A DNA stretch of 64,000 nucleotides from assembly GCA_038363925.1 (NCBI GenBank), contig JAQQWL010000013.1, positions 1,612,001-1,676,000 on the forward strand. Reading direction: 5' to 3'. The first letter of the stretch is position 1. Each line of letters starts with the position of its first letter. A program made the position numbers and the translations under genes. The notes beneath the pieces were generated by a model. It was not told where the DNA came from. It searched no databases and worked only from the letters and a program-made list of their open reading frames with translations. Source of the stretch: Apiospora phragmitis (lineage: Eukaryota > Ascomycota > Sordariomycetes > Amphisphaeriales > Apiosporaceae). This document shows, in pieces, positions 11,745-50,050 of this stretch.

Positions 11745-11746
11745 TA

Positions 11747-11776
11747 TCCCCTTAACTATTAATTATAGTAATAAAA
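11747..11776. repeat. Z left terminal inverted repeat
   Basis: About 27 of 30 positions match the reversed right end at 50021-50050. All mismatches are C/T or A/G changes, as expected from RIP. TA precedes it. Confidence 0.85.
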
Positions 11777-12270
11777 GTGGGAACAGCGTTTAAATTAATT
11801 TAAAAAATTAGATCTTATTAAATGCTTATAGTTTATATTAAAATAAGCGTAGGATATGTATAAATATTTGTTATAAAAAGTATTATAATTTTAAATTAAG
11901 TTTTAATATATTATATTAATTAAAAAAATTATTAACGTAGTTTATTATAAAATAAACTATATTATTAAAAGGCTTGATTTTATATTTAATTTTCTTATTA
12001 AACATTCGTATATAATAACTCTATTAATATTACATCGATTTTATTTTAAAAATATTTAATAGCTTTAATAATTTAAATAATATATAAAAGCTAAAATTTA
12101 ATTAATTAAAAACGCGTTTTTATTATATATAACGTTTTATATAAAACGTTATATAATTAAATTAATAGCCGAACTTTATAACGTAAAATTTAATATTTAT
12201 AATATAAATTAAAATTAATTATTAAAAAGTGATTTATAAATATATAATTAATTTAAATACGTAAGGGATA
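11777..12270. other. Residual left arm of Z, strongly AT-rich
   Basis: About 0.5 kb of heavily mutated DNA between the Z terminus and the Y terminus, with no readable protein. It contains two perfect palindromes: 14 bases at 12108-12121 (around ACGCGT) and 30 bases at 12126-12155 (around TTTATATAAA). Confidence 0.5.
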
Positions 12271-12272
12271 TA

Positions 12273-12388
12273 TTACGATCGGCGGGTTAGTCCCTCGCGG
12301 GGTAACACTTAAGGCGTAGGATTAAATAAAAATAACCGTTTAGTTATTTCCGAAGCTTTTATTTTATAACGTAGTAGTTAGTTTAAAC
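12273..12388. repeat. Y left long terminal inverted repeat
   Basis: About 116 bases matching the reversed right end at 47465-47580. Differences are mostly transitions, with a short length difference in the CCC/GGG tract. Confidence 0.85.
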
Positions 12389-12389
12389 G

Positions 12390-13904
12390 TATTATAATAA
12401 GATACTTTTTAAAATAATTAATATATAAAATATAGTTAATTTTTTTTACCGCGTTATATAGCGGCGAGCGCGTTAATAAACATTAAGTTAAGCGCTGTAT
12501 TAGTTATAAACTAAAATTTAACACTTAAATAAATCGTTAATATAATTATTAAAGAGTTTTTTATAAAAATTCGAAAGTTATTTTTAGCTGGTTTAAATTA
12601 ATTATAAATATTAAAACTAAATACGATATTATTAATAAAAAATATATAAAATTTTAACGAGATTAATTTTATAATAAACGTAATTAAGTTAATACTTATT
12701 ATAACGCGCGTTAATTAATATAAGAAAATTAATTTAATTTAGCTCATAATTAAAAATAATTAAATATATTAATTAATAAAACTAATATATCTCGCTGTTA
12801 TTAATTATTTAAAGTTAATATTAATTTTTTTAAATTAAACGCGCGAATATAATTTATAAAGCGATTAAATAATTAAATTAACTCTTAATAATTAAACTAA
12901 TAGTAAAATAAACTTTAATTAAACTAAGTACTTTAATAAGTATATTAAATTATAAAAAAGGCTTATTATCGTTTTTTAATCTTTAACGGTTACGAGAGCT
13001 ATATTTTAATTATTAAATACAGTATTTTATTTAAGTTTAAAGCGTATATATTTAAAATAAATTAAGTTATTTATTAAAGCCTCGATTAATTATATTATAA
13101 AGTTAAAACTCTTATTTATTTTTAAAGCTACGTATTTTATTATCTTTATAAAAAATAATATAAAATTTAAATTTAGTGTATTTAGTTTAATATTTTATTA
13201 TTTAAACGAGGTAATTAAAAAACTAAATATAAATTTTTAAATACTTATATTTAACTTATTATACTCGAGACTAACTAACATTTATAACCTTTAAACGTTA
13301 TTTAATTTTTAATAAATGATTAAAAATTTCATGTTTAATAAATATAAAGTTTTTATTTATAAAAGAAGCTCTTTAATATAAATTTTAAATATTATAAATT
13401 AAATAATAAAGTGTATAAATATAATAATATATTTAATAACCTTTATACGCGTAAAGTGTATATTTTATAAGTTATTAATTTATTGTTTTAAACGTTAAAA
13501 AGTTAAGAAATCGCGGTTTTAATTTAAAAAAGCCGTTATCATTTAAGAATTTTAAGAGTTATTAAACGAGAAGTTAAAAGAGAAGCGTTTAATAACCGGT
13601 GAAAGCGAAAAAAAGGTTTATTAAAACGAAGGGCGACCGGTAAAAGGCGCTATAATATTTACGGCGAAATAAGTTATAATACGTAAATATAAAAAAAGGA
13701 TATAAAATCGAGTAATAAATTAAATAACGAGTAGTTTTAATTAAGTTAAATAAAAGTATAAAAAAATAAAAATATTAAGCTTTTTAATAATAAAGCTTAT
13801 TTAGTAGTAAATTATATTATATTTATAGCTATTATTTTTAAGTAAAGGATTTAAATACCTTATATCACCTCTATAAAGATTTATTTACCCTGTCATTTTA
13901 TCTA
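12390..13904 (+). pseudogene. Y transposase, N-terminal through zinc-knuckle-like tail (RIP-destroyed)
   Basis: Stop codons occur throughout. Still readable are the DDE-domain strand corresponding to a D-G-H-x-S-H motif near 12980-13010 and the C-terminal tail near 13640-13700, where a C-x2-C-G-x2-G-H-N-x-R-T-C type motif survives with C-to-Y and H-to-Y changes. This tail is typical of Fot-like pogo transposases. The coding remnant is followed by the gypsy3 insertion at 13905-13909. Confidence 0.7.
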
Positions 13905-13909
13905 CCGGT

Positions 13910-14547
13910 TATAACAAACGCTATCTAGGTTTTAAAAAAAACCTAGTAAGACGTACTAGGGTTTATATTAATAATACGAGAGAGTATTTAAACGTGCGAT
14001 AAGAGTAACGCTTTTATCGATATAATATATAATAGCCGGGTCGTAACGTGGTAATAAGGGGTTAAGTAAAAGTATTTATATAATAAGGTCGTTAAAGTTG
14101 TTTACTTTATTAATAGGTTAAGATTAATACTTAAATTAATTATTAAAGTAGAGAGTGTTTATATAAAATATATAAGGAATCGTTTATTATTACATATTTA
14201 ATCTTTACTTTATTAATTCCTTCGTTACTTAGTTTTAATTAACCGTAATTAATATTATTTAATTAAGTATTATTAAACTACGCCTCGTTATTACGTAGCT
14301 TATTTTTAATTATTTATATTATTTTATTTATTTTTACTTATTTAAAACTAAGTAGCCTTATCGTGCTATCTTTATAATATTAATTATCGTAGTATTATAA
14401 CGGTGTTATAAGTTTTCTTATTATTAACGAGTTCGTTAATACTAGCCGGTGGGGTAAGTTCTAATACTAGTTTTCGTAAGCGCCTTAAGATATCGTATCG
14501 CCGTGCCGAAGGTGGGTCTAGTTATATAATTAAGTTAAGTCGTAATA
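13910..14547 (-). repeat. LTR-C, 3' LTR of gypsy3
   Basis: 638 bases, ending (forward) in the reverse complement of TATTACGACTTAAC. It aligns along its length with the other LTR-C copies at 29806-29862 plus 44805-45370 and at 48597-49222. A purine-rich tract (reversed) follows at 14548-14565. Confidence 0.85.
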
Positions 14548-14671
14548 CTATTCTCCCTCTTTTATTTATTTTATTTTTAAAATAATTAATTATTATAAAT
14601 GTTCCGTAGTTTTCTTTATTATATTATAATTTTATAAGTTTCTTTTTTCTTTTACTTGTTATTATAATATA

Positions 14672-16365
14672 ACGTACTTTATAAGCGAGCTACGTATTTT
14701 TAATTAAATTTTTTATAATTAATTTTATATTAACTATTCTTTTTTAATAAGTATAAAATTAGAAAATAAAGAAAAAAAAGTTTAATTTAAAGCTTTAATC
14801 GCTTTAAAATAATTCGAAATTAAGTATACGAAAAACTATAACGATATATTATATTTTAAAATTAACGTTACGTAGCCGATAACGCGGAATTTAATTACGA
14901 TTTAAAATCTCTATAAACTTTTAAAAACTTTCTAATTTTAAAAAGGAATTAATTATTCGATATATTATTAATCTAAATACGCGATCGTTTTTTCACCGGT
15001 TAAATAATATAAAAGATATAACGAATCGATTATTTAATTTACGCGACGCGAGACGCGTCGGCGTTAACTAGGCTTTTAATTTCGTATAACGATAATTAGA
15101 CCTCCGGACGCGTTTTAACCGAAGAATCGATTATTAAAAAATCTTTTACGAAAATTCTAACGCGTATCGCGCGTAATTTATTCTCGTATAAAATATAACT
15201 AATAAATATAAAATATAAAAGGAGGATATATTTAATTTCAACGAGACCGGGTTTTTTATAAATTAAATCTCGTTTAAAATAATCGTAACTACTTTTAATT
15301 AACGCGGAAAATCTAAAGTAATATAATAAAAGAATTAAGAATAATGTATAATTATTTAAAACGTCGGATTAAACGATTACGTTATCCCTTCGTATATAAT
15401 TTTTACCGGGAAAACGTACCTCTTTTTTTTAATATAGAAATAGCTTATTATTAAAGTATAAAGTAATCGTAATAATTAAAAATAATTAAATTATAAATAA
15501 AAAAAGCGAGAACTAAATTTAATATTTTAATTAATATATTAAGTCTTATATAAAAGGTCGTTATTACTTTTTAGTTTTAAACGGCTACGAAAGCTACTAC
15601 TCGATAGCTTTTAAGCTTTATTATAAAGAGAACTTAATTATTATATTTTATATATTTTTTTATTTATCGTATAAGTTTTAACTTTTTAATATCGGCTATT
15701 TTCGTATATTAAAAAAGGCGTACGAGAAAGAAATTAAAGGTTTTATACGGGCGTATATTACTTATATTTTTAAAGAAGACTTCCTACTAGCGTTTTTAAA
15801 AGCGTTCTAAGCGATTTCTATCGTTTCGAATATATAAAGAGGCTTTTAAAAAATAAGACTTGTTTTATATAATCCGGAATATATTATTTTATAGTTAGAT
15901 ATAAAGCTATATATTTTAATATTTCCGGGCATATTTTTTAGCTTATTTATTCCTTAAGAATTAAAAACTTTAAATAATTCGATTAAAGCTTAATTTTAAA
16001 CTAAATAAGTTTAAAACCGTATTATATAATATTAAAATAACTTTATAATATTTATTTTAATTAGTTTTAATTAAATTATAAAGGTTATAACGTAAATTAC
16101 ATACCGAGTTACTCTTTTAAAAGGTAAAAACGCGACACTTCGAAAAGTAAATAAGATGTTTAGCCGGCGCCGCCGTACGAAAAAAACGGCTATAAAATAG
16201 AAGTACGCGTACTTATTAAAATAATATAAAAACCTTTAAAAATAATAATAATTAATATATTTAATTAATTATAAACGTTATAATTAAATAAATTTATAAC
16301 TTATAAAGCTTAATAATAAAAAGTGCGCAGCTAGTTTATATACATAGCTCGCTTATAAGGTACGT
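14672..16365 (+). mobile_element. pogo1: Fot/Pot2-like DNA transposon in gypsy3
   Basis: TIRs begin ACGTACTTTATAAGCGAGC on the left and ACGTACCTTATAAGCGAGC on the right (reversed), each next to TA (14670-14671 and 16366-16367). The plus strand carries a decayed transposase: the HTH-like N-terminal region from ~14800, a Y-N-F-x-E-T-G type DDE strand near 15235, the N/D-G-Y-E-S-Y strand near 15585, and the GFRGAGLVPFDPE-like end near 15840-15890. At 1,694 bases it lacks ~130 bases near its right end that pogo2, pogo3 and pogo4 retain. Confidence 0.88.
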
Positions 16366-17261
16366 TATATTTATTATAACATTAAGTCGAGTTAAAAAGT
16401 CGCGGTCTAAGCTTAAAGGTTTTACCGCTCGTCGTTATAATCTCATTACTTCTTTCGAGGACTTTAGTTTTAAGGTTAAACCGTATTCTCGTTATTTTTC
16501 TAAAAAGTAAAAATATATAATAATAAAAAGTATTAAGAAATATGAAAAATATATTCGTTCGTTGTTTTCTTATAATAATACCGGGGTCTCTCTTTATTCG
16601 TTATAACGTATTTAAGAGGAGTATTATTATTTAAAACGTAAAAAAGCTATTATTAAAAAACGTTTTTTCGAGCTTTAAAAACGTTATTAAAAAAAGATAA
16701 TCGAGGCCGTTACTCGCTTAATTCGTTTTCGAAAATAAAAGGAAATAGCTCGCACTTAAGGTATAAAGCTATTATAACGTAGTCTTTGTTCTTTAAACGA
16801 ATTAAAGGAATAAGAACGCTAAAAATCGGAGGCCGTTCTCGCTATTTAAGCTTAGAAGGGTTTCGGCGTTATTAATTAAAACGTAACGGACTTTTCTTTT
16901 AAACCGGTTTCGAAGGTTATTACTTAAATACCTATAATTTTTCCGCGGCGTTCGCTAAGTATCCGTTAAATTTTTAGTTATTATTTTTTAATAAGTAATT
17001 TTTTTATTAAACGAGCTATTAAAAGCTTCGTTTAGTTTTTCTTTTATCGGTAATTTTCTCGACCTCGTATTCGTATTAATTTGTTTTAACTTTTAATTAT
17101 ATATCGATCGGGGTATTTTTAACCGCTAGTTTAAATAATAAAATATAAAATATAAGGTATATTTATATTATTTTAAGTAATAATGATTAATAATTAGTTT
17201 TTAAAATATTTTTTATAATTTTAAATAATCCGATTTTTTTAAAATCTAATTTTTCGCCTAG
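16366..17261 (-). pseudogene. gypsy3 pol 3' end (chromodomain region) and 3' untranslated region
   Basis: The minus strand aligns with gypsy1 23470-23760 through the end of pol, including the chromodomain-like segment (around 16960-17080). The remaining part is 3' untranslated sequence similar to 47948-48590. It was separated from the rest of gypsy3 by gypsy1. Confidence 0.75.
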
Positions 17262-17266
17262 TCGTT

Positions 17267-17889
17267 TATTACGACCTAGCCTAATCACGCGGCCTAGACC
17301 TATAAAACGTCGGCACGGAACTACGATGCCCGACCAGGCTACGACACCACCAGTATCGACCGAACCGCCAGCTATACTAACGCGAACTTACCCTTACTCC
17401 GCGGCCGACGGCCTAGTACGACGCCTTTCCGGCAGACCATGGGACGAACGCATACCCATAAAGGCTAAGGACGGACGTCACGAGACCACGGCGTCCCGAG
17501 TGAGCCCGCTGGAGTGGATTACCGTGATCCAAGGAATGGATCACCGTGAGCTAATAACGGATCACTATGAGCTAATAGGTAATCTAGGGAGATTAGTAAA
17601 GGAGGGATTAGATATATAATTACGAACGTTTCTTTTTATATTTTATATAAATACTCTTTATTTTAATAATTAATTTAAGTATTTATTTTAATTTATAAAT
17701 AAGGTATATATTTTAATAATTTTTATAAATATTTTAAATTATATTTTTAAGTTTACGATTTAAATTATAATTATTATTTATTATATTAATAAGTATAAAA
17801 ACTTATTATACGCTTAAATATTATTTCGTTTAAATTAATATAAACTTAATATATTTTATTTAATTTTTTTAAAAACTTAGTTCGTTATA
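17267..17889 (+). repeat. LTR-A, 5' LTR of gypsy1
   Basis: 623 bases, TATTACGACC...TTATA (TG...CA ends after RIP). The segment ~17280-17620 is almost free of RIP and carries a 97-codon open frame that I treat as accidental. The remainder, 17620-17889, is more mutated than the matching part of the 3' LTR. Confidence 0.92.
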
Positions 17890-17969
17890 TTTTAATTACT
17901 TTTATTTTTATAAATTATTACTTAAACCTTTAAATAATAACCTATAAAAATAATATTTATTTTTATTAA

Positions 17970-19480
17970 TAGCGCTCGTTACGGGAAAGTACTAATCGCC
18001 GGACCTAATATTACGTAGCCACCCTCTCGTATAAACGTCGATAGCGACGAAAGCGATAACGAGGCCCGGTACTTAAAGAGAAGCTTAAGGCTTTAAAGTA
18101 AGAAAATATTAATTATAAAACCTACTACGGACGCCTTAAAGGCGAAAACACTATCCTTAAAGGTAACTAGCGGTCCGAGCTAGATAATAATAACGATATA
18201 CGAAAACTAAAGGAGGAGGTTCGACTCCTCCGCGCAGCCGCTAATATTATTAAGACCCCCGTCGCGCTAAAAGAGGGAGTTAAGATCAGTACTTTAGCTA
18301 TGTTTGATAAGACTAACGGGAACTTACGAAGCTTTCTAGTTTAAGTTAAGGCTTATTAGCGATTTTACGAAAAGAATATTTACCGATTTTACTTAACGCG
18401 TAATATACGCCGCCTCGTTTTTTAAAGGTAAAATACTCGCTTAATTTAAACCTTACCTCGACGAACTCGTAAAGCACGATTAGTAAGTCGAACTTTACCG
18501 AACGAAAGTATAACGTATTTTTAGGAGTTACGAAAGATTTAAGGACGCTTTTAAATTACTGTTTTAAAATCCCGACGAGAAACGATAGGCCGAACGAGAA
18601 CTCGAAACCTTATAATAAAAAGGGTTAATTACGAGCTATATAATCGAGTTCTGATGTATTATAGCACGATTTAATAATACCGAAAATATTAAAATTATAA
18701 TATATTATTGAAGCTTTAAAGAGGAGGTTAAAAGCGAATTAAATAGACTTAATACGTTAAAAGATTTCTCTAATTATGTAGAATTAATTATTAAAATCGA
18801 TACGCGACTTTATAAGAGGCGTAAAAAGAAATAAAGAAGCTAATTAAAATAAAATAACCGACCTTAAATTAATAATAACCGAATTAATATTAAATAATTA
18901 TAATAATTACGACCGTTATTTAAGCTCCGAACTATTATATATAATTATTATAGCGGACTTATAAACTTCGACGTTATTTAATGAAAAACGGACGGCAAAA
19001 AATAAAATATTACTTATTATAATTATTAAAAGAAAGAATATTACGTTAAAAAATATTAAAGCTTTAAAAAGGTATTTTAACGAGTTTTTAATAAACGATA
19101 AATTAACGCTATTAAAAAGGAATTAACTTTAATAATTATTAAAAATAATAGCGTTAATACGCTTAACGTATTACACGATAATTTAATTTAAACGGCTTAT
19201 TATAATAACGGTTATACCATATATTTAGTAAATAAAAAAGGAACCGGATAATTCTTTAAAGCTTTAAAATAACGACGTACCCTATAAATACTCGCGATAA
19301 TAAGAAAGGATAACGGCGATAATAATAGCGACTTTATTAATAATAACCTTAAAGCCTTCGTAAAATTAACCGAATAAACCGAAAAACCTGAGAAACTAAT
19401 TAAAATACCCGTTAACGAACTAGTTATAAAGCTTATAAAAACTCGAAACTTTAAAATTAATAAATAACTAATTATTTTCG
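17970..19480 (+). pseudogene. gypsy1 gag remnant
   Basis: Stops in all frames. The segment near 18300-18480 reads as the capsid region typical of fungal gypsy gag, and a possible CCHC knuckle sits near 18940-18990. The same gag, more decayed, is at 31380-33017. Confidence 0.6.
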
Positions 19481-22400
19481 AAGTTATAAGCCCCGATTTT
19501 AAATAAATACGATAAAAGCTTATTACCGCCGGATTTAAATAAAGGATTTATAAAAACTACGTTATAAAAAATAACTTATAAGTTATTCCGATTAACGAAA
19601 AATACTTTACCTTCTCTTAAATATTTTATATCTATAACGGGTATACGGAACACCTCGTAAAAAAACTCGAGAACGAATAGTTCTCTCCAACGGATCGGAC
19701 GAAACCTAGTTAGGTACCTATACGCCGATTACGATATCGGGAAGATTAATATTTCTATACCCGATAGATAACGAGCCTACTTATTAATAAAAAAAAACCC
19801 GAGGTGGCCCCGGAAATGCTACCTAGACTAATAGAATTAAAAAAACTATACGGAGGACCGATACTTAAAGCACGTATAAAAAAAATCCTGAGCTTATAAA
19901 CGACTTTAAAAAAACGCGTAATATTTTTAAAAAATATAAGCTAGACGAACCGTTAAAATATTAAATAACCGATTTAATTTAAAACCTATATATACGTATT
20001 AAACTTACGATACTTTTTTAATAATTAAAAAAGTATAGCGTAATAATGTATTCCTAATTATTAATAAACGTAATATCCGCGTATCTCGATAAGTATAATT
20101 AATACGGGAAAACGGAAAAATCTTTAAAGCACGTTAAACGGAAAGAATAATCCGCCTTAAAAAATATTAACTCGATTTTATTAATTATAAAAAATTAAAG
20201 TTTTAAGTGTTAAAATTAATATTATATATAAAAAAAAACCTCGAAATATTATTATCCGCGTATAACGCTTTATAACTAATTACAAAAGAATGATAGTAAT
20301 AACGCCGGGAACGCGTATAAGAATACGCGTAAAAAGCCGGTTAACCTATATAGAAGTTAGGAAATAAACGCCGCCTATTATAAAAAGATAATACCAGGCG
20401 GGATAAAACAGGTCTTTATACTATATTACGGATAAACGAGATATCTATAAGTATATTATATTAATAATAAATATAAAAAGAGTTTATATTAAAGCGTTAC
20501 TCGATAACGAAACGTAAAAAAACTATATCTCACTACGAATCGTTAATCGCCTAAAATTAAAATAATAAAAAAAAACGCCCTTTACCGACTTAAAACCGTC
20601 GATAAAGGATTTATAATATACGAAAATAAAATAATACGGAGGGAAGTCGCGAACCTTCTTATTATTATCGATTAACGATATAAACGAATTACGTATAATA
20701 TTACGGACATATTAAATTACGATATAATTTTAAAAGGATACCTTAATTACGGGTAAATAATTTATAAATTAATTAAAGAATAGGTTAATTTTAATAAAAT
20801 ATATTAAAAAAAGACTTAATTACTAAGCGGTATCCTATAAAAAGAGCTTTAAACGAACTTATAATACTTAAAGCTTATATCGTTATTAAAAAGCTTAAAA
20901 TAAATATTACGGTATAAATACTAAACGAGTATAAACAGTTTAGTAACCTTTTTAACGGAGAACTAAAAACCGAACTACCTTAACATATACGCTAAGACTA
21001 TAAAATACCTTTAAAAAAAGGGAAAAAACCATATTTCATATTAACATACCGACTTAACCAGGAGTACGAATAAGCTTTAAAAGAATATATCGAGGAAAAC
21101 CTCGGAAAGGGATATATACAACTATTTACGTTATTAACTAAATACCCTATACTCTTCGTCCTTAAAAAGAGTAAAAACGGAATACTTAAATAAAAAATAT
21201 ATATCGATTATCGGAAGCTTAATAATATTATTATTAAAAACCGGTACCCCTTTCCCCTTATTAACGACCTACGCGACAAGTTATATAAAGCTAAGGTCTA
21301 TACCGCCTTCGATTTGCCTAACGTGTACGGCCTTATCCGGATTAAGGAAAAAAACGAATAAAAAACCGCGTTTAGATTAAAGTACGGATACTTTAAATAC
21401 CTCGTTATACCTTTCGGTTTAATTAACGTATTAGCCAGCTTTTAAAATATAATTAACCATGTATTATAAAAATGCCTCGATAAGTTTATCGTCGTCTACC
21501 TCGACAACATCCTAATTTATTCCGAGAATAAAAACGAATACCGATAATATATTATTATAGTCTTATAAAAGCTCTAGGACGCTAACTTTTTAATTAACTT
21601 CGAGAAAAGCGTGTTTTATAAAGAGATAATTACTTTTATAAGATATATAATATTATTTGGAAAGATTCGAATAAAACCTTTTAAAGTAATAGTAGTTAAG
21701 GAGTAGCTTACGTTTATAAGCGCTATAGAAGTTAAGTCTTTCCTAGGATTCGCTAATTATTACCGGATTTTTATCCCCGGTTTTAATAAAATAGCGATAC
21801 CCCTAATAAATTTAATTAAAAAGGACGAATTATTTAAATAAATAAATATAAAAGAAATAGCTTTTTAAGCTATTAAAGAAAGAATTTTTAACTAACTAAT
21901 ACTTCGTATAATAAACCCTATATAATTATTCGAAATCGAAACCGACGCATCGAACTACGCGATCGGAGGCTAACTAAATTAACGGGACGATAGCGGGAAG
22001 CTACACCTGGTCGTATTCTTCTTTAAAAAATTAAACGGACTAAAACTTAACTATTAAATCTACGATAAAAAGCTTATAACTATTATTAAGGCTTATAAAA
22101 AATAGAGATATTATTTAAATAATATAAGTACTTTAATAAAGGTTTATATTAATTATAAAAACCTTACTTTATTTATTATTAATAAAGAGTTAAATAAACG
22201 ATAAATACGATAGTTTAAATTCCTATTAAGATTTAACCTTATTATTATTTACCGGAAAAGTAACGAGAACAGTAAAGCGGATATATTTAACCAACGATTA
22301 AATTATAAAGTAAACGTTCCTTTAAAAACATAAACGCTATTTATATAAAACCAAAATAATAATTTTATATTATCTCGGTAATTAAACGTTATTAATAAAA

Positions 22401-24430: not shown

Positions 24431-24447
24431 TAAGAAAAAGAGGATAG
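24431..24447 (+). other. gypsy1 polypurine tract
   Basis: TAAGAAAAAGAGGATAG lies directly before the 3' LTR, where plus-strand DNA synthesis is primed in LTR elements. Similar tracts precede the LTRs at 37258 and 48597. Confidence 0.6.
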
Positions 24448-25071
24448 TATTATAACCTAGCTTAATTACGCGGCTTAAACCTATAAAATATCGGTATAAA
24501 ACTACGATACCTCGACTAAATTACGATACTACTAGTATCGACCGAACCGCTAATTATATTAACGCGAACTCACCCCTATTCCGCGGCCGACGGCCTAGTA
24601 TAACGTTTCTCCGGTAAACTATAAGACGAACGTATACCTATAAAGGCTAAAGATAAACGTTACGAAACCACGGCGTCCCGAGTAAGCCCGCTAAAGTAGA
24701 TCACCGTAATCTAAGGAATAAATCACTATGAGCTAATAACGGATTATTATAAACTAATAGGTAATTTAAGGAGATTAATAAAAGAAGGATTAAATATATA
24801 ATTACGAACGTTTCCCTTTATATTTTATATAAATACTCTTTACTTTAATAATTAATCTAAGCATTTATCTTAACTTATAAATAAGGTATATACCTTAATA
24901 ACCTTTATAAATACTTTAAATTACACCTTTAAGTCTACGATTCAAGTTACGGTTATTATTTATTATATTAATAAGTGTGAAGACCTATTACACGCCTAGA
25001 TACTATCTCGTTTAAGCTAATATAAACCTAGTACGTTCTACTTGGTTTCCCTAGAAACTTAGTTCTTTATA
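24448..25071 (+). repeat. LTR-A, 3' LTR of gypsy1
   Basis: 624 bases, TATTATAACC...TTATA, aligned over its length with 17267-17889 and followed by TCGTT. Confidence 0.92.
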
Positions 25072-25076
25072 TCGTT

Positions 25077-28000
25077 TAGTTTTAATATTTCGTCGTAAAA
25101 AGTATACTCTCCTTCCCTCTTTTAAAGTTAATCCTTTTAACTTAATTTAATCGGCATATTTTTTTATTCGTTATTAAAAAAAGGTAAGGTATTATAATAA
25201 AATAGTTTAAAATTCTTTTAATTTCTTAATTTATATAATCGCGATTAATACTAGCTTTCTTTTTAAAGGTTTTTTAATAATTTCTAAGTCGTACCCGTAG
25301 TTCGCTTAAAATAATAATATACGTATAATTTCGTTATTCGCGTTATTATAAACGAACTACGCTATAAGTAATAATTATATTTAATTATTTTATTTATAAT
25401 TAACGTAATAATATAAGTATTACTTTAATATTTAATTTATCCGCTTAGTTTATTTATTTATTCAAAGGTAATAAGCCGTAAATACTTTATATTTAACGCC
25501 GAGTTACGCTATAAGCGATTTCTAAAACTTAGTAATAAATAACTTATATCGGTTAAAAATAATCGTTTTAAATAGCTGGTATTATTAAACGATTATTCGA
25601 AGGAACGTATAAGTTAAGTTATTAGTATTATTAAATTCTTTATATAATAAGAAATAAGTATATTTCGTGAATTTATTCGTAATTATTAAGATATTATTAT
25701 AATTAACTTTAGTTAAGGGTTCTTTTAATAGGGGTAGCTTAATTATAAAGTTAAGTGTAATCGTTTTTACGCCTTATTTAGCGGTAGGATTAGCTATAAT
25801 TCTTTATATAATTAATGCTTAACGGCTTTAACTTTATTATAAAGGTTATATTTATTAATTACTTTAATTATAATTAGTTTAAGGTTTTTATAATCGAATT
25901 ACTTAATAATTCGCATTTAAGTTTTAAATATTCCTTAATATTTATACGCGAGGTATTCGTAGAACTCCTTAATAAATTCCTCGCGGTACTATTTAGGGAT
26001 AGAAACCTTACCTCGGTAAAAAATAAGATTATCGCGGCTTTCGAGGTGATTTCGAACGTAATTAATAAAATAGAGGGTCCGATTAAATTATTTAAACTTA
26101 GTAACTTATTTATTATTATATTAAACGTAGTTCGTAATACTTAGTTACTATAATAGCGTAAGGTTATCGTTTTAATTATAAATTAAAATAGTCCGCATTT
26201 TTAATAAGACTTTTTTTTAATATTTTAGTCGTTAATTTAATACGTTAACGCGACCGTTCTTATTGTTTTTATAGAAAATAATAATAAAATTAAATCTTAA
26301 TAAGAATTTAAACTATTATATTTATTATTTATTTAACTTTTTAATAATAATAAACGTCGTAAGGTTTTTATAATCGGTATAAATCTTTACGGGTTTTATT
26401 ATTTAGTTAAAATAATATCTTTATTTTTTATAAGCTTTAATAATAGTTATTACCTTTTTATTATAGATTTAATAATTAAGTTTTAATTTATTAAGCTTTT
26501 TAAAAAAAATTACGATAAGGTGCGACTTCTCGTCGTTATTTCGTTAATTTAGCTACCCTCCGATCGTATACTTTAATACGTTAGTTTTAATTTTAAAAGG
26601 TTTAGTAAAGTTTATTACGTAAAGTATTAATTCGTTAAAAAATCGTTCCTTAATATCGTAAAAAGCTCCGGCTTTTTTTCTATTTATCGGAATAGCTCGT
26701 CCTTTTTTATTAAGTTCGTTAAAAGTATCGCTATCTTATTAAATCCGGGGATAAAGATCCGGTAATAATTAGCTAGTTTTAGGAAGGATTTAACTTCTAT
26801 AGCGTTTATAGGCGTGAGCTATTCTTTAACTATTAAGATTTTTAAAGGTTTTATCCGAATCTCTCCGGGGGATATTACGTATTTTATAAATATAGCTAAT
26901 CGCTAGTACAATTCGTTTTTTTTAAGTTAATTAATAAATTAATATCCTATAATTTTTAAAGTATTAATTTTATATACTCTTTATATTATTACTTATTTTT
27001 AAAATATATTAAGATATTATCGAGATATATTACGATAAATTTATTAAAGTATTCGCGTAAAACGTAATTAATTATCGTTTAAAAATTAGCCGGTATATTA
27101 ATTAAATTAAATAGTATAATTTAATATTTAAGATATTTATATTTAATTCGAAACGCGGTTTTTATTCTTTTTTTTAATCCGGATTAAGTTATGCGTATTA
27201 AAGAGATTAAATATTATAAAAATCTTAACGTATAATAATTTATTTCGTAGGTCGCCGATTAAGGATAAAGGGTACCGGTTTTTAATAATAATTTTGTTAA
27301 ACTTCTAATATTTAATATATATACGCCACTTAAGTTTCCCGTTCTTGCTTTTTTTCGGAACGAAAAGGATAAGGAAGCTTATTAATAATATAAATAGTTA
27401 TATAACTCTTTTTCGAGGTTTTCCGTAATATATTCTTTTAAGGCTTATTTATATTTTATTATTTAATAAGGTTTAAATGATAACTTTTTTAATTTCGACT
27501 ATTAATATAATAAAATTATAAATATTTTAATTATTCATTATTAAATATAAAAACCTATTTTAATCTACTCGTTATTATTTTTTTATAATAAGCGGCGTTT
27601 ATTTTTTAAACGCTATTTTTATAAGTAATTATTAATTTCTTATAATCGATTATTATATCGTCGTTATCGTTCTTTTTACTTTTTATACAATATTTTTAAA
27701 TATATTAACGGGGGTATTTTTATACTTTTCCTCGTATAAAACATTATCCTTAATACTTAAAATTCTAGTTTTCCGAATAATTCGAAGGTTTATTAAGTTC
27801 GTTAAAGTTTATAAACGCTTTATAAGTTTTTTAATATAATAAAGGGGTCCTTTTATTAGGTATATACCTATACGTTTTAAAAGCGTTAGGCGCTCTCCTT
27901 TAAACGTTTATAAGCTCGCGATTTTTCCTAGGCGTATTTAAGGGATCAGTCCTTAAAATACTCCTTTTAATCTTATCCTTTTAAATAATACTATCGTAAC

Positions 28001-29805: not shown

Positions 29806-29862
29806 TATAATAAACGTTATTTAACTTTTAAAAAAAACTTAATAAAACGTATTAAGGTTTAT
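29806..29862 (-). repeat. LTR-C, 5' LTR of gypsy3, inner fragment
   Basis: 57 bases that match the first part of 13910-14547. Copia then interrupts at TTTAT (29858-29862), and the LTR resumes at 44805. Confidence 0.8.
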
Positions 29863-31275: not shown

Positions 31276-31379
31276 TTTTAATTACTTTTATTTTTACGAG
31301 TTATTACTTAAACTTTTAAATAATAATATTTATAAGAACTATTTTTATATTTAAACTTAATAATACCCCTCGTTACGAG

Positions 31380-39448: not shown

Positions 39449-42400
39449 CCGAACTACTTATAATATACCTCGTATAATATTTCTTAAAATATTATATATT
39501 AAAAATAAAAAAGATTTCTTTTTAAAAATCGTTTATTACTAAGTTTAATAAATAAATTAAATATTAATTCGATTAAATTAATTATACGTTTTAAAAAGAG
39601 CTCTTTAATTTTTAAAAAAAAATACGAAATCGATATATTAACGAATAGATACTTTAGAACTAAGCTCGTAAACTTAGTATTACCGGCAGCTGTTATATAT
39701 TAATAAAACTAATTAATAAAACCGATCTCGAAAACTCGAAAAAAGGATATTCTATACTCTTTCTAAGAATAAATAATTAAATAACCGACGCTTAAATAAA
39801 AAACAGCCGGTTTTTATATAAAGTAATTGTTTATAATATTACAAGACATTTTAAGCCTAACGTTTAACCCTAAATTTATAAATATTTAAATGTTATAAAA
39901 TATCGTCCTTTTTTCTTTTTTAACTCCGGTACCGCCGAATTAAACTATATAATTATTTAATTTAATATATATTATAAGCATAATATTTTTTAAACCGAGT
40001 TCTTTATAATAATAAAATCGATTAAAATAAAGTCGTTACTTTTTTAAAAATATAAAAAAAACAAAAACTATACCGGCAAGCTATACGATATCTTTTATAA
40101 TAAAATACGGGTATTTATTAAAATATACCGACGGCTAAATATATTAAAGGTTTAATATTATACGATCTTCTTAAATATTCTTTCTAACCGTGCGGAGGTA
40201 TTCTATTTTAATTATATCGAACTTAAAAAGAAATAAAATAAGATATATTACTTTATAAACTGGTATTTTAATATAATAATAAACTACGTATAATATTTTA
40301 CAGATTAAATAATAACTTTTTTATATAAATAAAAAATAAAAACGCCGAGAAATAACTTATTAAGGTTTTAAAAATCTTATTAAATAAGCTTTAACTCGTA
40401 TAACGAGCCTTTAAAAAAAACTCGAAAAAGAAGTCGCTCTCTATACCTTAATCGTACAAATTTACCGAGAAGTTCCGGAACTTATACCGGCCTTTATTAA
40501 TTAAAAACTAATATATAAAGTATTGTTCTTAAACTTTCGTATATCGTTAAATATAATAATAAATTAAAAACTCTCGAAATAATATTTAATAATGGAATTA
40601 TATCGAAATTTAGTTATAAATATATATTTAATTAATAAATAGTTTATAAATAATTATAAGAAACGAAAGAAACTAATTTATAATAATAAACTATTAAATA
40701 ATAATTAATTATTAAAATAGAATAAAAATTAATAACTTATAAACACTTTTTAATTTAAATTATTATGTAAAAACCCTACGAAATTTATTATAAATAAAAT
40801 AATTAATTAATAAACTACTTAATTAGAAAATAAACCCGTATAATAACTTAATACTTTTAAATATATAATAATATTAAATAAAAACTCCTTATTTAACATA
40901 AATATAAGGATTTCGTTCGAAACTAAAAAAAAGAGCTAAAAAATAAGGAAAAAAGTATAACTACCTTAATTTAAAAAATATATAATAAAATATTATTTAA
41001 TTAATAAACGCCGCGTTTTATTACCGGCTTATTAATAAAAATATCTACTCTTTAAAAACTATCGTATAAGCCGACCAATTTAACCTCAACAGCTCGTATA
41101 GCTAGACTTACTAAGGAAAGTTTTAAAATACCGGCGCCGCCTTGTTTTCGATAATCTGAAAGCCTCAAGCAAAGGCCTACGTATAAAAAACCTAAACGTA
41201 CGAATTAATTAAACCCCGGGGAGCGTCGAGATTAAGTTCGAAAGCTTAAAACCTATCTCGTTAATTAAAATAATCGATATATAAAACCGATTAAAAGTAA
41301 TTAAATACTATATTTTAAATATTATAACCTTCTTTATGTTTATTATATAACGCCGACCGGTTTAAAATATATTATAATAATATTTTTAATCTTATTATAT
41401 AAAAAAATAAAACAATATTACTTATAATTAAAAAATAAAAACATTTATTCTTTAATACCGGCCGTATAAAAACGACGTTATATTTTATTAAAAAACAGCT
41501 TCGATACCTCTACTAATAATTTAAACACCCTCGTATAGAAAAGCTTTATACCTTCCTAAAGAGCGCCGGCTATAATAATATTAAGCTTATTATTCTCGAT
41601 AAGATTTAAAAGTTTTATTCTTAATATTAATCGTATAATTTAACATTATAAAGATTTAAATTCTCGTTATAAAATAAATACGATTTTAATTACGAAATTA
41701 TTATAAATATTATTTATATTAATAAATAAAACGTACTTTACGTAATTAATTCGAATATATCTTTTTAAACGATTATATTCTTATATTCGCTTAACGTATA
41801 AAACACTTGAAATACTTTTAATGATTATTAAATATACGAATATTAAAAACTCTTTAATTATATTCCGTATAATTTAAGTACGTATTTTTAAAAAGAACTT
41901 TAAAACTATATATAAATAATAAGAATTACTTATAAATAAATACTTAATAAAACTTATTAAGTAATAAATAAAATTAAACGAACGTATATTCCGTTATATA
42001 AAACCTTCGATATTTTATAAAAAGATCTCGGTTATTAAATAAATACCGAAATAATATTTAAAATAATTATTAAAACTCTAAATAATACGGCTGGCCCCGA
42101 CGGCCTAATACCTACCCTACTCGTATTTAAAACATACCCTCGTATCGACGGGAACTTATTACCGTTACTAGAGATCTAAGTACGAAGAGAAGTCGTACGA
42201 AAAGTAATTAAGATACTTCGGAAACTACGTACGAATATCGATATTTACCGAGTTTTAAATACCCGGAACGGACCGGCTATCCATAATATCTTAATACTCC
42301 CGCTCCGAAATAAAGTTTTGATTTAGCGAAAAAAAGAAAGATAAACCGGACTATATAAGATAATAATTATCGAAAACTATACGATTTAAGTGAATACCCT

Positions 42401-44584
42401 AAACGGCCTGAAAACTTTTCGAATAACTTAAATTAAGCCGTACTATTAAAAAAAGGCCGGAGAATTATACGACGAGCCGAATATATAACTAAATCCGTAA
42501 TAGCCGGTAAATATTTTAAATATTAAACTAATAACCGAAGAAATTATAATAGCTCCCGTATAACGTAACCGGGGATAACTTAAAAAATAGCTATACCGAA
42601 ACGTTCTAACCGCCGTATTTTTTATTTAAAAAAAATAAGAGAATTACGATTTAATAATTAAATTTTAATAAAACGGCGTTATTACCTCGTTTAAATATTT
42701 ATTCTAAGAGTTTAACGCGGAAAAGATTAATAATCTCGCCGTATAAAAAGTTTTCGAATTTATTCGATTCGACCCGGGTAAGTATACCGGCTAAAAAATA
42801 TTTAAAACACGGCTCGTATAAGAAATTAAAGATAGAACTACGAAGCTATACGAGAAGTTTAGGCTCGTAATATAAAGCTATAAAGATATAAAAAAAGGCT
42901 ATTTTAACGTAATTATTAATAATTTAAAAAATAAACTAAAAACTCTTATAAACTTTCGAACCGACTTTAATTCGAAACTTTAACGTATAAAATAAGTTAC
43001 GTTATATTATATAAATATATATTTAATTATATAATAAATTAAATTAATTAGTTTATATACATTTATTAATAAAATTAAAGACTTAATATTTTAAAAAACG
43101 CTACTTTAAATCGTATTACTTTTATATAAACTAATAAAATCGGGATTTCACTAATTTAAAACATATTATAATTATTATATATAAAATTTAAAAATAATAA
43201 GTTTAATATATAACGCCTATTTATTATTTATTATAAATAGACCGGATATTTTTAATATTATAATAATGTAAACCGACGATACGTTTAGCTTCGCTATAAC
43301 CCCCCTTTTTTTAAAAAAAAAGGGAGAAAAACTAATAAAGTAATAATTTTATATAAAACCGAAAAATATCTTAACCGAAAGCACGCCGATAAAATTTAAC
43401 GGAAACAAGATTTAATTGAAATTATATAATATCCTTTTCGAATAAAAAGAATAAGTTAACTAATTAAAACCTATTAACTCGAAAGCTATCGATAAAAACT
43501 AATAATATATCTCTTAACTAGTAAAAAGAGTATACCTAGTATTTATTTATTAATTAAAAATAACGTATAATTTACCTAATACCGCTTAAATGTAAACCTT
43601 AAAAAATAAAAATATTAAGAGCTTAAATAACCGTATTAATAATAAATTTAAAACTCGATGCGCGGTTTAAAGTATATCCAGCTTAATCTTTATTATACGA
43701 AAATATATATCTTTATTAACGGCTCGTTTACGAATAACGAGGACTTAACTTCTTAATTTAAATAGTTAATCTTATTAAATTAAGAAATAAATCGTATAAA
43801 AAACTATTTTAAAATTTAAAGGAATATTATTTACTAAAGCTCGATAAAATATAAAAGAATTACACGGAACGTATTAATTAGCGAACTATACGGTACGATT
43901 TTTAATATAAATAACGGTATCGTACTAAGCATTACGTTTAAAAGAATCGTATAAACCTTAAAATTCTAAAATATATTAATAACTTTTTATATAAATTTAA
44001 AATCTTTTTAGAACTATTTAATTAAGCTAGGTATAATAAATAAAAAAAGGCTTATAATTAATATTATATCTCTTCGAGAATCGTATAAAAAAAGAGATCT
44101 TATAAATCTATTATATCGACAACAAGGATAACCCGGTAAACGCCCTTATTAAAATATCCTTAAATAAGGCCCTTAAATAAATAGTTTTAATAAATAACCT
44201 TATTATACGTATAAAAATATATATTAAAAAGCTAAACTCGTATATCTTTAATAAAATATAACGTATTGCGATATATAACGGCACCCCTATTACTATTATT
44301 ATTTTTAAACCGTTCTTTTTAATTTATAATAAAAAATAATATATATTAATATATAATAACTTCTCTTATTACCGTTATTATTATCGAATAATTAAAATAA
44401 TTAATTAAAAAACTTATTACTTAATAAAATTATTATTAAAAAGGTACAGCATTACCTATATAGCTTAGGCAGGCACCGAATACCGGATTAATATAACCCA
44501 TCCGTACGAGACCCTCGAGAAAAGAAGGCCCGTATTTAAAAAAGAGAACAGGCTAATTTTATCGCTAAAATAAAAAACTATTAA
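39449..44584 (+). pseudogene. Copia gag-pol remnant (IN, RT, RNase H)
   Basis: Follows the gypsy2 insertion. GAG-pre-integrase H-x-G-H-P-like region at ~41500-41620 and integrase core at ~41650-42060. The integrase tail motif G-P-D-G-L-I-P-T-L-L-V-F is intact near 42090-42125, and the reverse transcriptase starts ~42700. The catalytic T-D-D-T is intact at 43272-43283. RNase H begins near 43700 with an F-I-N/D-G-S-F-A motif. Otherwise full of stops. Confidence 0.85.
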
Positions 44585-44799
44585 TATTAGAACAGCAAGA
44601 ATTAAAGTTTTTTATATTATTTTAAAAAAAAAAGTACTACGTACCTACGCGTATAAACCCCTGTTTTATTTTATTAAAAAGGGTATATAATGCCTTTCGT
44701 AATTAGTATTATAAATAAATATAAATAAAAGAATATAATAATATAACTTTAATTAAACATAGAACCCACTTATACGTACGTATAAAAGCCTATTTAATA
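44585..44799 (+). repeat. Copia 3' LTR
   Basis: 215 bases matching 29863-30076, followed by the TTTAT duplication and the resumed LTR-C. Confidence 0.88.
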
Positions 44800-44804
44800 T
44801 TTAT

Positions 44805-45370
44805 ATTAATAATATAATAAAAGTAACGCTTTTATCGATATAATATATAATAACCGGGTCGTAACGTAATAATAAAGGGTTAAATAAAAGTATTTATATA
44901 ATAAAGTTATTAAGGTTATTTATTTTATGAATAAATTAAAATTAATACTAAAATTAATTTATAAAGTAAAGAATCTTTATATAAAATATATAAGGAATTA
45001 TTTATTATTATATATTTAATCTCTTTTTTATTAAGTTTTTCGTTATTTAGTTTTAATTAGCCGTAATTAATATTATTTAATTAAATATTATTTAATATAG
45101 TTTTATTAAATTATATCTCGTTATTACGTAATTTATTTCTAGCTATTTATATTATTTTATTTATTTAAGGCTAAATAATTTTATTATATTATCGTCGTAA
45201 TATTAATTATCGTAATATTATAGCGGTATTATAAGTTTTATTATTATCGGCGGGTTTATTAATATTAGCCGGTGGGGTAAGTTCTAGTACTAGTTTTTAT
45301 AAGCGCCTCGAGATATTATATCGCCGTGCTAAAAGTGGGTTTAGCCGTATAATTAAGTTAGGTCGTAATA
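44805..45370 (-). repeat. LTR-C, 5' LTR of gypsy3, outer part
   Basis: 566 bases; with 29806-29862 it makes a 623-base LTR. Ends GGTCGTAATA and is followed by CCGGT. Confidence 0.87.
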
Positions 45371-45438
45371 CCGGTTTTAACGCTTTAATTATTACCCTTC
45401 TTATTAAAAAAATAAGTAACTTATTTATAAATAATTTA

Positions 45439-47276
45439 ACGTATCCTATAAGCGAATATCTTATATAAGCGAATATCTCATTTTTTTATACCCTTTTTAA
45501 TAAAATATAAATTAATTTTATTATAACGTATTTAATATATTAAAATTAATCGGAATCCTTATTTTTAAATACTTTTATATTATTTTAATAAGTACGCGTA
45601 TTATGCCCGGGCTCTCCGTAAATTTTATAGCGTTATAAGCGTGTCCTAAACGTCTTCGTATAACTATTCCTCCGACGCGATTCGTTTTATAATTATTTAT
45701 TAACGTCCTTTTAAAACTATAAGTCTTTTCTAGCTTATATATAAAGTGATCCTCTATTTTATAACCGTTTCTTTTTCGTACGGCGGCGCCGGCTAAACAT
45801 TTTATTTACTTTTCGAAATATCGCGTTCTTACTTTTTAAAAAAATAACTCGGTATATAATATACGTTATAACCTTTATATTTTAATTAAAACTAATTAAA
45901 ATAAACGTTAAAAAATTATTTTAATATTATATAATACGGTTTTAAACGTATTCGGTTTAAGATTAAGTTTTAATCGGATTGTTTAAAGTTTTTAATTCTT
46001 AAAGAATAAATAGGTTAAAAAACGTCCCCGGAAGTATTAAAGTATATAGTTTTATATCTAATTATGAAATAATATATTCCGGATTATACGAAACGAGTCC
46101 TATTTTTTAAAAGCCTCCTTATATATTCGAAACGATAAAAATCGCTTAAAACGCTTTTAAAAACGCTGGTAGGAAGTCCTCTTTTAAAATATAAGTAATA
46201 TGCGCCCGTATAAAATATTTAATTTCTTTTTTATACGCCTTTTTTAATATATAAAAATAGCCGATATTAAAAAATTAAAGGTTATATTATAAATAAATAA
46301 ATATATAAAGTAAAATAATCGAGTTCTTTTTATAATAAAGCTCGAAAATTATTAAGTAATAACTTTCGTAACTATTTAAGATTAAAAAATAATAACGATT
46401 TTTTGTATAAAACCTAATATATTAATTAAAGTATCAAATTTAGTCCTCGCCTTTTTTATTTATAATTTAATTATTTTTAATAACTGCGATCACCTAATCC
46501 TTCGGTAATAGGCTATTTTTATACTAAGAAAAGAGGTACGTTTTCTTAATAAAAATAATATACGGAAAAATAGCGTAACCGTATAATCCGACGCTTTTAA
46601 TAATTATAATCTATTCCCGGTTCTTTTATTATATTACCCTAAGCTTTCCGCATCGATTAAAGGTGGTTACGATTATTTCGAACGAAATTTAATTTATAAA
46701 AAAGCCGGTTTCGTCGAAATTATAGATATCCTCCTTTTAAATCCCGTATTTATAAATTATATTCTATACGAAAATAAACTATACGCGATACGCGTCGGGA
46801 TCTTTATAAAAAAAAATTTAATAATCGATTCTTTAGTTAAAACGCGTCCGTAGGTCTAATTATCGTCGTATAAAATTAAAGGCCTAATTAATGCCGACGC
46901 GTTTTACGTCGCGTAAACTAAATAATCGATTCGTTATATTTTTATATTACTTAATTAAAAAAAAATCGCGTATTTAAATTAATAATATATTAAATAATCG
47001 TATTTTTTTAAAATTTAAAAGCTTTCGAGAATTTATAAATATTTTGCGTCGTATAGGTTAACTATTTCGTCTACGCTATAAAGTTTTCGATAAGACGTAA
47101 TAAATTAATACAGCCTTTTATACGTTTAAAATTAAGTCTTTTTAAAACGTTTAAAGCGTTAGAATTATATTACTCTATTTTTAAAGTTATAGTATTTTCG
47201 GACGTAAAAGAATATAAAAAAAGGTTGAGGCTATAAGGAAATTTATAAAAGTAAGACATTCGCTTGTGGGATACGT
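45439..47276 (-). mobile_element. pogo4: Fot/Pot2-like transposon in Y
   Basis: TIRs ACGTATCCTATAAGCGAATA and (reversed) ACGTATCCCACAAGCGAATG, with TA at 45437-45438 and 47277-47278. 1,838 bases. The transposase remnant reads on the minus strand and aligns with pogo3 along its length. The left end carries two copies of an AAGCGAATATC motif, the right end only one. Confidence 0.9.
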
Positions 47277-47464
47277 TAAACTAAAAAATTAATACTACTT
47301 ATCATGTATAATAACTTTATTGCTATTATTTTAAGTTTTAATCGATAGCTTCGAGTTTTTCGATCTTAACGCTATAACTTTTATTTTTAATAATTAAGCT
47401 ATTAAAAAAAGTTTAGCTATAAAGTCGACCGCCGAAACGCGACCCGCGTAGTATTATTACAGTG

Positions 47465-47580
47465 GGTTTAAACTAACTACTACGCTATAAAATAAAAGCT
47501 TCGGAAATAACTAGACGGTTATTTCTATCTAATTCTATGCCTTAAGTGCTACCCCCGGGGGACTAACCCGCCGATCGTAA
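47465..47580. repeat. Y right long terminal inverted repeat
   Basis: Reverse of 12273-12388, ending GATCGTAA followed by TA. Confidence 0.85.
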
Positions 47581-47582
47581 TA

Positions 47583-47945
47583 CTATACCCCCTCTCTAAG
47601 GGCATACACTTATACCTAAGGCGATAAACTCTTAATAACCGCATAATTTATTTAAGCTCGGTATAAAAAAACCTTAAGGCTTTTATATAAAGAATTAATT
47701 CGTATAAGGCCTTATTTATTTATTAACGATTTTACTTAAATAATTAAAGAGAGCTCTTATTTAATAAATATAAGAATTAAACCCACGTCTTTTATTTAGT
47801 AAATATATTTAGTTATTATATTATAATATGTTTAAATTAATTATTACGTTATAAAGTAAAAGCTTTAAAAATAACTAAACGGTCATTTATATCTAATTCT
47901 ACGCCTTAAGTACTACCCCGCGGGGGACTAACCCGCCGATCGTAA
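47583..47945. mobile_element. Severed right end of a second Y-type element
   Basis: 47830-47945 is another copy of the 116-base Y right terminus, ending GATCGTAA with TA after it. 47583-47829 does not align well with the Y interior and no matching left end is present in the block, so this is a truncated, related element whose other half is gone. Confidence 0.6.
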
Positions 47946-47947
47946 TA

Positions 47948-49222
47948 AGTATTAAATCGAAAGAAAAATCTATTATATTTTAATCGATAACATCGAAGCT
48001 ACCCTAGGCTTAAACGGCTAAAACAACCTTAAACTCTTAACGCTCCTATTCCTTTAACTCGTCTAAAAAACGAAAACCCCGCTGTACTAACTTCACACCT
48101 TAGGTGCGAGCCATTTTTTTCTATTTTTTAAAACGAATTAAACGAGCCACGGCTTCGTTAATTTAACGTTATAGCTCGAGGAAATACGTCTCCGTAGTTA
48201 GCTCTTTACGAAAAAAACGGTCATGCTCGTTCTATACTTAATAAAGAGAGGATAATAAAATACCGGTTTTATTATAAGCGTAATTAATACGAGTATATTT
48301 TTTATATTTATTAACGCCTTTTATTATAGTATATAATTATTGTTTTAAGAAATAATAATTATAAAATATAACGATAAAACTAAACTTATTAAAAGCCTCG
48401 ATTAAATTAACGTAATAAACGATAAAAAAATAAGTAAACTTAAATCGCGATTTTTTAATATAATTACATATAATAAGTATATATTATAAATAAAAAGTAA
48501 AAAAGAAGGGAACTTATTAAAATTCTCGACGAAAATAATAAAACTTAGTATTTATAATAATTAATTATTTTAAAAAAAATAAAAAAAAGAGGATAGTATT
48601 ATAACTTAACTTAATTATACGGCTAAACCTACCCTTAACACGGCGATATTATATTTTAAAGCGCTTATAAAAACTAGTATTAAAACTTACCTTACCGGTT
48701 AATATTAATAAACCTATTTATAATAATAAACCCCACTATATCGCTATAACATTGTAATAATAATATAATAAAGCTAATTAATTATAAATAAATAAAAATA
48801 AATAATATAATATAAATAGTTAAAAATAAGTTACGTAACGAATAAAATAAAACGTAACTTAGTAAAATAATATCGAATAGGTTAATTATAATTATTAAAT
48901 AATATTAAATATAATTAGCGAAAGTTATTAAGTTAAAGTAATTAATAAAAAACGATTAAATATATAATAATAAATATTTTTTATTTTAATAATTAATTTA
49001 AACATAAATCTTAACTTATGAATAAAATAAATAACTTTAATAACTTTATTATATAAATACTTTTACTCGACCCCTCGGTATTACGTTACGACCCGGCTAT
49101 TATATATTATATTAATAGGCGCGTTATTTTTATCGCACGTTTAGATATTCTCTCGTATTATTAATATAAACCCTAGTATGTTTTACTAGGTTTCTTTTAA
49201 AACTTAAATAACGTTTATTACA
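47948..49222 (+). mobile_element. gypsy4: 3' untranslated region and 3' LTR of a lost gypsy
   Basis: 47948-48590 matches, in plus orientation, the gypsy3 3' untranslated region at 16366-16900. A purine-rich tract (AAAAAAAAGAGGATAG) precedes LTR-C at 48597-49222 (626 bases). CCGGG follows. No 5' part or 5' LTR of this copy is in the window. Confidence 0.78.
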
Positions 49223-50020
49223 CCGGGGACGGCTAGTACCTATAACCCTTAAACGTCGTTTAACCCTTAATAAACGACTAAACACTCTACTTTTATTAAA
49301 AATAAGGTCTTTACTTATTAAAAAAGCTCCTCGACGCTTATTTTAAATATTATAAACTAAATAACGAAAAGTATAAATAAAATAACTTATAAAATAACCT
49401 TTATACGCGACTAGATATATATATTAAAAGAGGTTAATTTAATACTTTTTAAGCGCCGTAAAGTTAAAAAGGTACGTGTTTAGCTTAAAAGAGCCCTTAC
49501 TATATAGGAATTTTAAAAGCTATAAGATAAGAAGGTAAAAAAGAAGCGTCTAACGACTAATAAAGGCGAAACAGGGGGTTCGTCGAAGCGGAAGGCAACT
49601 AGTAAAAGGCGCTATACTATCTGCGGCGAGATAGGCTATAATACGCGAACATATAAAAAAGAGGTAGAATTAAATAATAATTCCGATAGCGAATAATTTA
49701 AATTAATTTATATAGAAATATTAAAGAGTTAAAAAAGTGTTTTAATATATAATACGTTTTAATATATAATAAACGACGTTATAAATATATAATTAAATAA
49801 CGTATTAAATAAAAAGTAATTTTAATTAATTTATATAAAATAATAAAATATAAAAGAAGGAATTAATTTAATAATAAATTAAAATATTAATATTTAAGTT
49901 TTAATTTAAATAAAAAACCAGTTAATTAAAGATAATTTAATTAATTATTATTAATATAATTAATAATATTCTTTAAATTAAATTACATTCTTTTAAATAC
50001 TAATATACTACTTGCCCTAG
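49223..50020 (+). pseudogene. Z transposase C-terminal remnant
   Basis: Related to the Y transposase C-terminus (13250-13740) but distinct in sequence. The zinc-knuckle-like motif reads Y-T-I-C-G-E-I-G-Y-N-T-R-T-Y at ~49620-49665, where C, C/G and H positions have been altered by C-to-T/G-to-A change. About 350 bases of AT-rich DNA separate it from the right TIR. The N-terminal half is missing. Confidence 0.65.
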
Positions 50021-50050
50021 TTTTATTACTATAGTTAACAGTTAAAGGGA
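50021..50050. repeat. Z right terminal inverted repeat
   Basis: Reverse match of 11747-11776, followed by TA. Base composition returns to normal right after it. Confidence 0.85.

Follow-up and report, generated by a model that had tools for sequence, protein, structure and literature searches.

The window analysed here is a stretch of 64,000 nucleotides of the Apiospora phragmitis genome (C13:1612001-1676000; 52.67 Mb in 19 contigs) that contains an AT-rich block of about 38 kb. Genes with fungal domains, for example Fungal_trans and Sugar_tr, flank the block, and GC content is mostly 49-58% in the flanks compared with 17-31% in 2-kb windows between 12 and 50 kb. The block carries the signature of repeat-induced point mutation (RIP), C-to-T change in repeats that prefers CpA; the TA/AT index is 1.35 in the block versus 0.71-0.74 in the flanks, and the ratio (CA+TG)/(AC+GT) is 0.15 versus 1.21-1.22. 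Comparison of the two long terminal repeats (LTRs) of one resident retrotransposon, gypsy1, disclosed mutation at 22/25 and 7/7 CpA sites, 20/41 and 25/34 CpT sites, 12/65 and 4/14 CpG sites, and 7/53 and 8/13 CpC sites. These values bear out a preliminary description, made from the sequence alone, that had called the region RIP-affected. The block is composed of RIP-mutated transposons inserted into one another, and we put at about 0.88 the probability that its longest supported chain runs inward from an element with terminal inverted repeats (TIRs), Z, through a Mutator-like element (MULE), gypsy3, copia, and gypsy2 to pogo3, with side branches and later deletions (Table 1).

From the MULE inward, each step of this chain combines a target-site duplication (TSD) with genome copies or LTR partners that cross the site. 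For the outermost of these steps, the host flanks of gypsy3 were joined into 327 nt, from which pogo4 was also removed. Of 31 rows aligned to this join, 15 span the gypsy3 site in one alignment; the remainder include pieces of the window itself. All but one of the 15 crossed the pogo4 site too, and some of the alignments were gapped. In one genome copy (L049) the segments 13832-13915, 45369-45439, and 47277-47454 are directly consecutive without any joining. The right LTR of gypsy3, joined across copia, aligns to the left LTR and to a copy elsewhere (L058), with one 20-bp gap located 10 bp off the site. Both sides of the gypsy2 site in copia are present at 17 of the 29 tested loci and are adjacent in all 17 (16 within 2 bp; L012 is 29 bp short), while the other 12 comprise six without a usable pair and six matching in the LTR only. 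The left LTR of gypsy2 aligns gap-free over the pogo3 site. On the gypsy3 side branches, the gypsy1 site is continuous in six of the eight genome regions that were scored, in agreement with the alignment of another copy (L057), which also crosses the pogo1 site save for 17 bp of the window without a partner.

Table 1. Elements of the AT-rich block and their parts, in window coordinates.
Feature	Start	End	Strand	Remarks
Z	11747	50050		TIR matching at 27/30
Yfam1	11935	13817		complete DDE/pogo-like element; TA 11933-34 / 13818-19
Solo TRIM LTR	12271	12399		within Yfam1; orientation opposite to the 47455 copy; TSD GGATA/AGATA
MULE 5' piece	13840	13909	+	includes TIR; runs through the gypsy3 TSD
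gypsy3	13910	45370	-	net 7013 bp; LTR pair; TSD CCGGT 13905-09 / 45371-75
pogo1	14672	16365		in gypsy3; TA/TA
gypsy1	17267	25071	+	in gypsy3; TSD TCGTT/TCGTT
copia-type LTR element	29863	44799		net 6059 bp; in gypsy3 right LTR; TSD TTTAT 29858-62 / 44800-04
gypsy2	30576	39448	+	net 5369 bp; in copia; TSD TCGAA 30571-75 / CCGAA 39449-53
pogo2	33018	34849		in gypsy2; host lacks ~1.9 kb at its right edge
pogo3	37725	39392		in gypsy2 right LTR; TA/TA
MULE second piece	45376	45438	+	between gypsy3 and pogo4
pogo4	45439	47276		in MULE; TA/TA
MULE third piece	47279	47454	+	up to the TRIM-like element
TRIM-like element	47455	47947		LTRs 47455-47582, 47819-47947; TSD AGTAT 47450-54 / 47948-52
gypsy4	47953	49221	+	3' fragment, 5' part missing; 3' LTR 48597-49221; homology to relatives from ~47956
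Yfam2	49222	49779		3' part of a second Yfam element; duplicates Yfam1 from ~13283 on

The direct host of gypsy3 is a truncated MULE. The window copy holds the first 309 bp only, with the left TIR alone and without the part that encodes the transposase domains, and a search of the window for the remainder did not find it. Three of the eight fetched relatives carry both TIRs, of about 50-60 bp, and measure 2042 bp (L051), ~2.0 kb (L052), and ~1.74 kb (L053). The first of these matches the Pfam families MULE (2.9e-17) and DBD_Tnp_Mut (3.2e-8). A 9-bp TSD agrees at 9/9 positions in L051, where it is an AT repeat, and at 8/9 in L052; a scan at the ends of L053 found none. These relatives resemble known Mutator-like elements in their TIRs, in the MULE and MuDR DNA-binding domains of L051, and in the 9-bp TSD as far as L051 and L052 show it; the window copy differs in its truncation.

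The preliminary description had placed a different host at this position, a 2.0-kb TA-flanked TIR element, Y, lying inside Z and enclosing gypsy3. We infer that its ends were set at 12271 and 47582, because these positions give a net length of 2006 bp. Its two ends of 128 bp are inverted relative to each other and match at 90%, as would be expected of such an element. However, the 128-bp unit serves as LTR to a 493-bp element, of which at least 35 further copies are among the matches listed (35 of 46), and the presumed right end of Y is simply the inner end of the left LTR of the copy at 47455. That copy has direct terminal repeats of 128 and 129 bp and identical 5-bp duplications, AGTAT/AGTAT; its very short size, direct repeats, and TSD are those of a terminal-repeat retrotransposon in miniature (TRIM), a class in which LTRs measure 100-250 bp. 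The copy at 12271 has a 5-bp TSD of its own and sits within another element, Yfam1, as a solo LTR: between ~12260 and ~12375-12407 it is absent from eight of the ten fetched Yfam relatives, and the remaining two lack that region. Yfam1 itself ends 92 bp short of gypsy3, which it adjoins and does not enclose, and the MULE copies are continuous over the sequence that flanks gypsy3. Y is therefore a pair of TRIM LTRs mistaken for TIRs, and a real 2.0-kb host with these ends is exceedingly improbable.

With Y the two containment steps that involved it, Y within Z and gypsy3 within Y, are lost, as no such element was found around gypsy3; the three inner steps (copia in gypsy3, gypsy2 in copia, pogo3 in gypsy2) are confirmed. 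Of the duplications reported earlier, CCGGT/CCGGT for gypsy3, TTTAT/TTTAT for copia, TCGAA/CCGAA for gypsy2, and TA/TA for pogo3 were recovered, and TA/TA was confirmed for Z. So were the net lengths of 2006, 7013, and 6059 bp, of which the first belongs to no real element and the second is not the full size of gypsy3, since about 0.5-0.6 kb present in copies elsewhere has been lost near 27450-27500, away from any inserted element. The expectation that host elements, once restored, would align continuously with genome copies or LTR partners was borne out at the gypsy3, copia, gypsy2, and pogo3 sites but not at pogo2, where gypsy2 is not continuous.

Yfam1 belongs to a family of elements whose two TIR ends, with TA outside them, recur in five of the ten fetched relatives in a TIR scan (L040, L044, L045, L047, L048; 1.81-1.89 kb). 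The segments 12400-13817 and 49222-49779 were considered as halves of a single element and rejected as such, given about 500 bp of same-family overlap; the left and right bodies accordingly come from two different Yfam copies. The second copy, Yfam2, begins flush with the end of the gypsy4 LTR, and in two genome relatives (L005, L006) a gypsy LTR is likewise followed by Yfam-like sequence.

Z delimits the whole block. Its inverted 30-mers agree at 27 of 30 positions (best of 60 shuffles: 22), all three mismatches are transitions, and TA/TA at 11745 and 50051 borders the element. A genome-wide pattern search for the TIR returned the two ends of Z and one other match with three mismatches. The latter belongs to a 169-bp TA-flanked TIR element that bears the terminal repeat of Z (positions 38-206 of L061, C9:2925780-2926780), in surroundings that are not AT-rich and apparently unmutated. 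A similarity search with the left end of Z matched only itself, and that with the right end yielded matches that were partial, for the most part weak, and stopped short of its last 30 bp. The TIR of Z was not found in the ten fetched Yfam loci, and Z and Yfam are therefore separate families. The TIR and the TA target duplication would suit a miniature inverted-repeat transposable element, a class of short TIR elements, and the relative measures 169 bp.

The position of the MULE between the two TIRs suggests that it lies within Z. The two edges of Z could instead once have been separate, a reading in keeping with the parts lost from the MULE, gypsy4, and Yfam2, and with the sequence that remains of Z, 188 bp on the left and 271 bp on the right, which beyond the TIR can scarcely be aligned to the sole 169-bp relative. 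Yet TA stands on both sides, the 27/30 match coincides precisely with the two borders of the AT block, and the pattern search gave no further Z end in the window. We consider separate origins of the two edges unlikely, and an enclosing Z remains the preferred outermost level.

Two junctions depart from simple nesting. At 47450-47960 the TRIM-like element, with its identical AGTAT flanks, has MULE sequence on its left and gypsy4 on its right. We had also considered gypsy4 as the host of gypsy3 and rejected it: segment 47277-47454 does not continue gypsy4 in the relatives L005 and L006 and is MULE sequence instead. The second junction surrounds pogo2, which retains its terminal repeat on both sides and has TA flush on the left (33016) and 2 bp from the element end on the right (34852). 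Two genome copies (L059, L060) have an additional gypsy segment of about 1.9 kb between the parts that flank pogo2, which gypsy2 lacks.

At both junctions, the sequence met on one side of a complete element differs from what comes next in the compared copies. Recombination or an assembly join, rather than serial insertion, could accordingly account for part of the stack, with MULE-TRIM-gypsy4 and gypsy2-pogo2-gypsy2 as the chief suspects. Such junctions would result if two TRIMs, or two pogo elements, recombined and the DNA between them dropped out. Against this stand the identical AGTAT flanks of the TRIM-like element and the presence of AGTAT at the corresponding site of four MULE copies out of five examined, so that such an origin, although a real contender, appears rather unlikely. 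Mutation state is uneven along the TRIM-like element, and a chimaera test based on it gave no decision. Insertion followed by deletion is the reading we prefer, and one deletion at the right edge of the TRIM-like element would explain the missing MULE 3', gypsy4 5', and Yfam2 5' parts together.

In the proposed order, the MULE would sit inside Z, and gypsy3 entered the MULE, copia gypsy3, gypsy2 copia, and pogo3 gypsy2. Side branches would have arisen by insertion of gypsy1 and pogo1 into gypsy3, of pogo4 and the TRIM-like element into the MULE, and of pogo2 into gypsy2, with Yfam1 and its solo TRIM LTR forming another in the left arm. Later deletions would have cost the MULE its 3' part, gypsy4 and Yfam2 their 5' parts, and gypsy2 about 1.9 kb next to pogo2.

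Long direct LTRs with a 5-bp TSD, as in Ty3/gypsy elements, are present in gypsy1, gypsy2, and gypsy3, while gypsy4 is a one-LTR fragment. Stop-free pieces of gypsy relatives gave Ty3_capsid (E 1.8e-4, L058) and RVT_1 (E 0.0077, L059), both below the curated cut-off, and the other such pieces had no Ty3 capsid or RVT match. The copia element has LTRs and a 5-bp TSD, and its superfamily name is the label of the preliminary description; 13 stop-free pieces of its relatives had no match to RVT_2-type polymerase or integrase domains. TA duplications with TIRs, as in pogo/Tc1-mariner elements, were found in pogo1, pogo3, pogo4, and Yfam1, the right TA of pogo2 being offset by 2 bp. One of eight Yfam pieces (relative L046) weakly matched DDE_1 (E 0.01, below cut-off). 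Six stop-free pogo pieces, searched for support of pogo1 to pogo4, had no transposase domain, and one stop-free piece compared with solved structures had no match.

Dating by substitutions outside the RIP pattern, proposed earlier as a check, did not reproduce the insertion order. Transversions between LTRs per compared site amounted to 1/619 in gypsy1, 10/594 in gypsy3, 4/202 in copia, 17/509 in gypsy2, and 2/124 in the TRIM-like element. The gypsy2 value exceeds that of gypsy3, not significantly (p 0.08), and is also above that of copia, though nesting predicts that gypsy2 should be no higher than either. On the main chain the dating therefore lends no support to the order and does not firmly contradict it. 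By the same measure gypsy1 is the youngest element (p 0.005 vs gypsy3; Fisher p 1.2e-5 vs gypsy2). Because gypsy1, one level into gypsy3, has far fewer transversions than the deeper gypsy2, depth does not equal age across branches, and the strict insertion order claimed for the locus holds along the one chain only.

The same comparison revealed that the LTRs of gypsy1 (17267-17889 and 24448-25071) are reciprocally mutated, with 106 of 110 transition differences fitting a single switch at LTR position 345-367. Up to position 345, C/G is retained by the left LTR at 62 of the 66 transition differences; beyond it, the right LTR retains C/G at 44/44. The last difference that favours the left LTR lies at 345, and the second part starts at 367 with the first that favours the right. 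In its outer part each LTR thus lacks the mutations that its partner carries in the corresponding inner part. Other gypsy1-like copies with two LTRs, paired by strand and a spacing of ~7 kb, were compared on the first halves of their LTRs. In five of six, the outer LTR departs less than the inner one from the unmutated sequence over this half, in one case by a single percentage point. No such switch was found between the LTRs of gypsy2 or of gypsy3. Tentatively, and at somewhat less than even odds, this pattern could mean that, in an LTR element that has just inserted, the outer ~0.3 kb at either end escapes RIP. Alternatively, a mutated element may have been copied into a fresh solo LTR via homologous repair, which would be a possible cause of the gypsy1 switch.

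Nested transposons are known from other fungi. In Epichloe festucae, several repeat families interrupt each other in AT-rich, RIP-inactivated blocks, and nesting affects most copies of most families (PMC6218096); the present block is alike in being nested and RIP-mutated, and differs in that one locus is resolved per junction with TSDs and empty-site copies. In Pyrenophora teres, insertion of transposable elements separates gene blocks ('TE fissuring'), with nested insertions and RIP (PMC5915480); nesting is treated there as an annotation difficulty, and the portion covered contains no comparable chain. A study of Zymoseptoria tritici counts nested insertions among the common causes of copy fragmentation (PMC9970103). 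Since such nesting is described as widespread in the AT-rich blocks of another fungus (PMC6218096), the stack in this window is not unusual, contrary to its earlier characterization as unusually complete. The locus is rather a good example of a known phenomenon, the gypsy1 LTR pattern being the one feature possibly of specialist interest.

For annotation, the locus gives warning that oppositely oriented TRIM LTRs can look like the termini of a TIR element, and that a normal-looking net length is no proof of a host element. For the biology of a RIP-affected fungus, the chain resolved at single junctions allows the events in one AT-rich block to be ordered relative to each other. If the gypsy1 LTR pattern were general, it would carry more weight: LTR-LTR divergence in fungi with RIP would be biased by the element edges, with a bearing on the way RIP recognises where homology stops.

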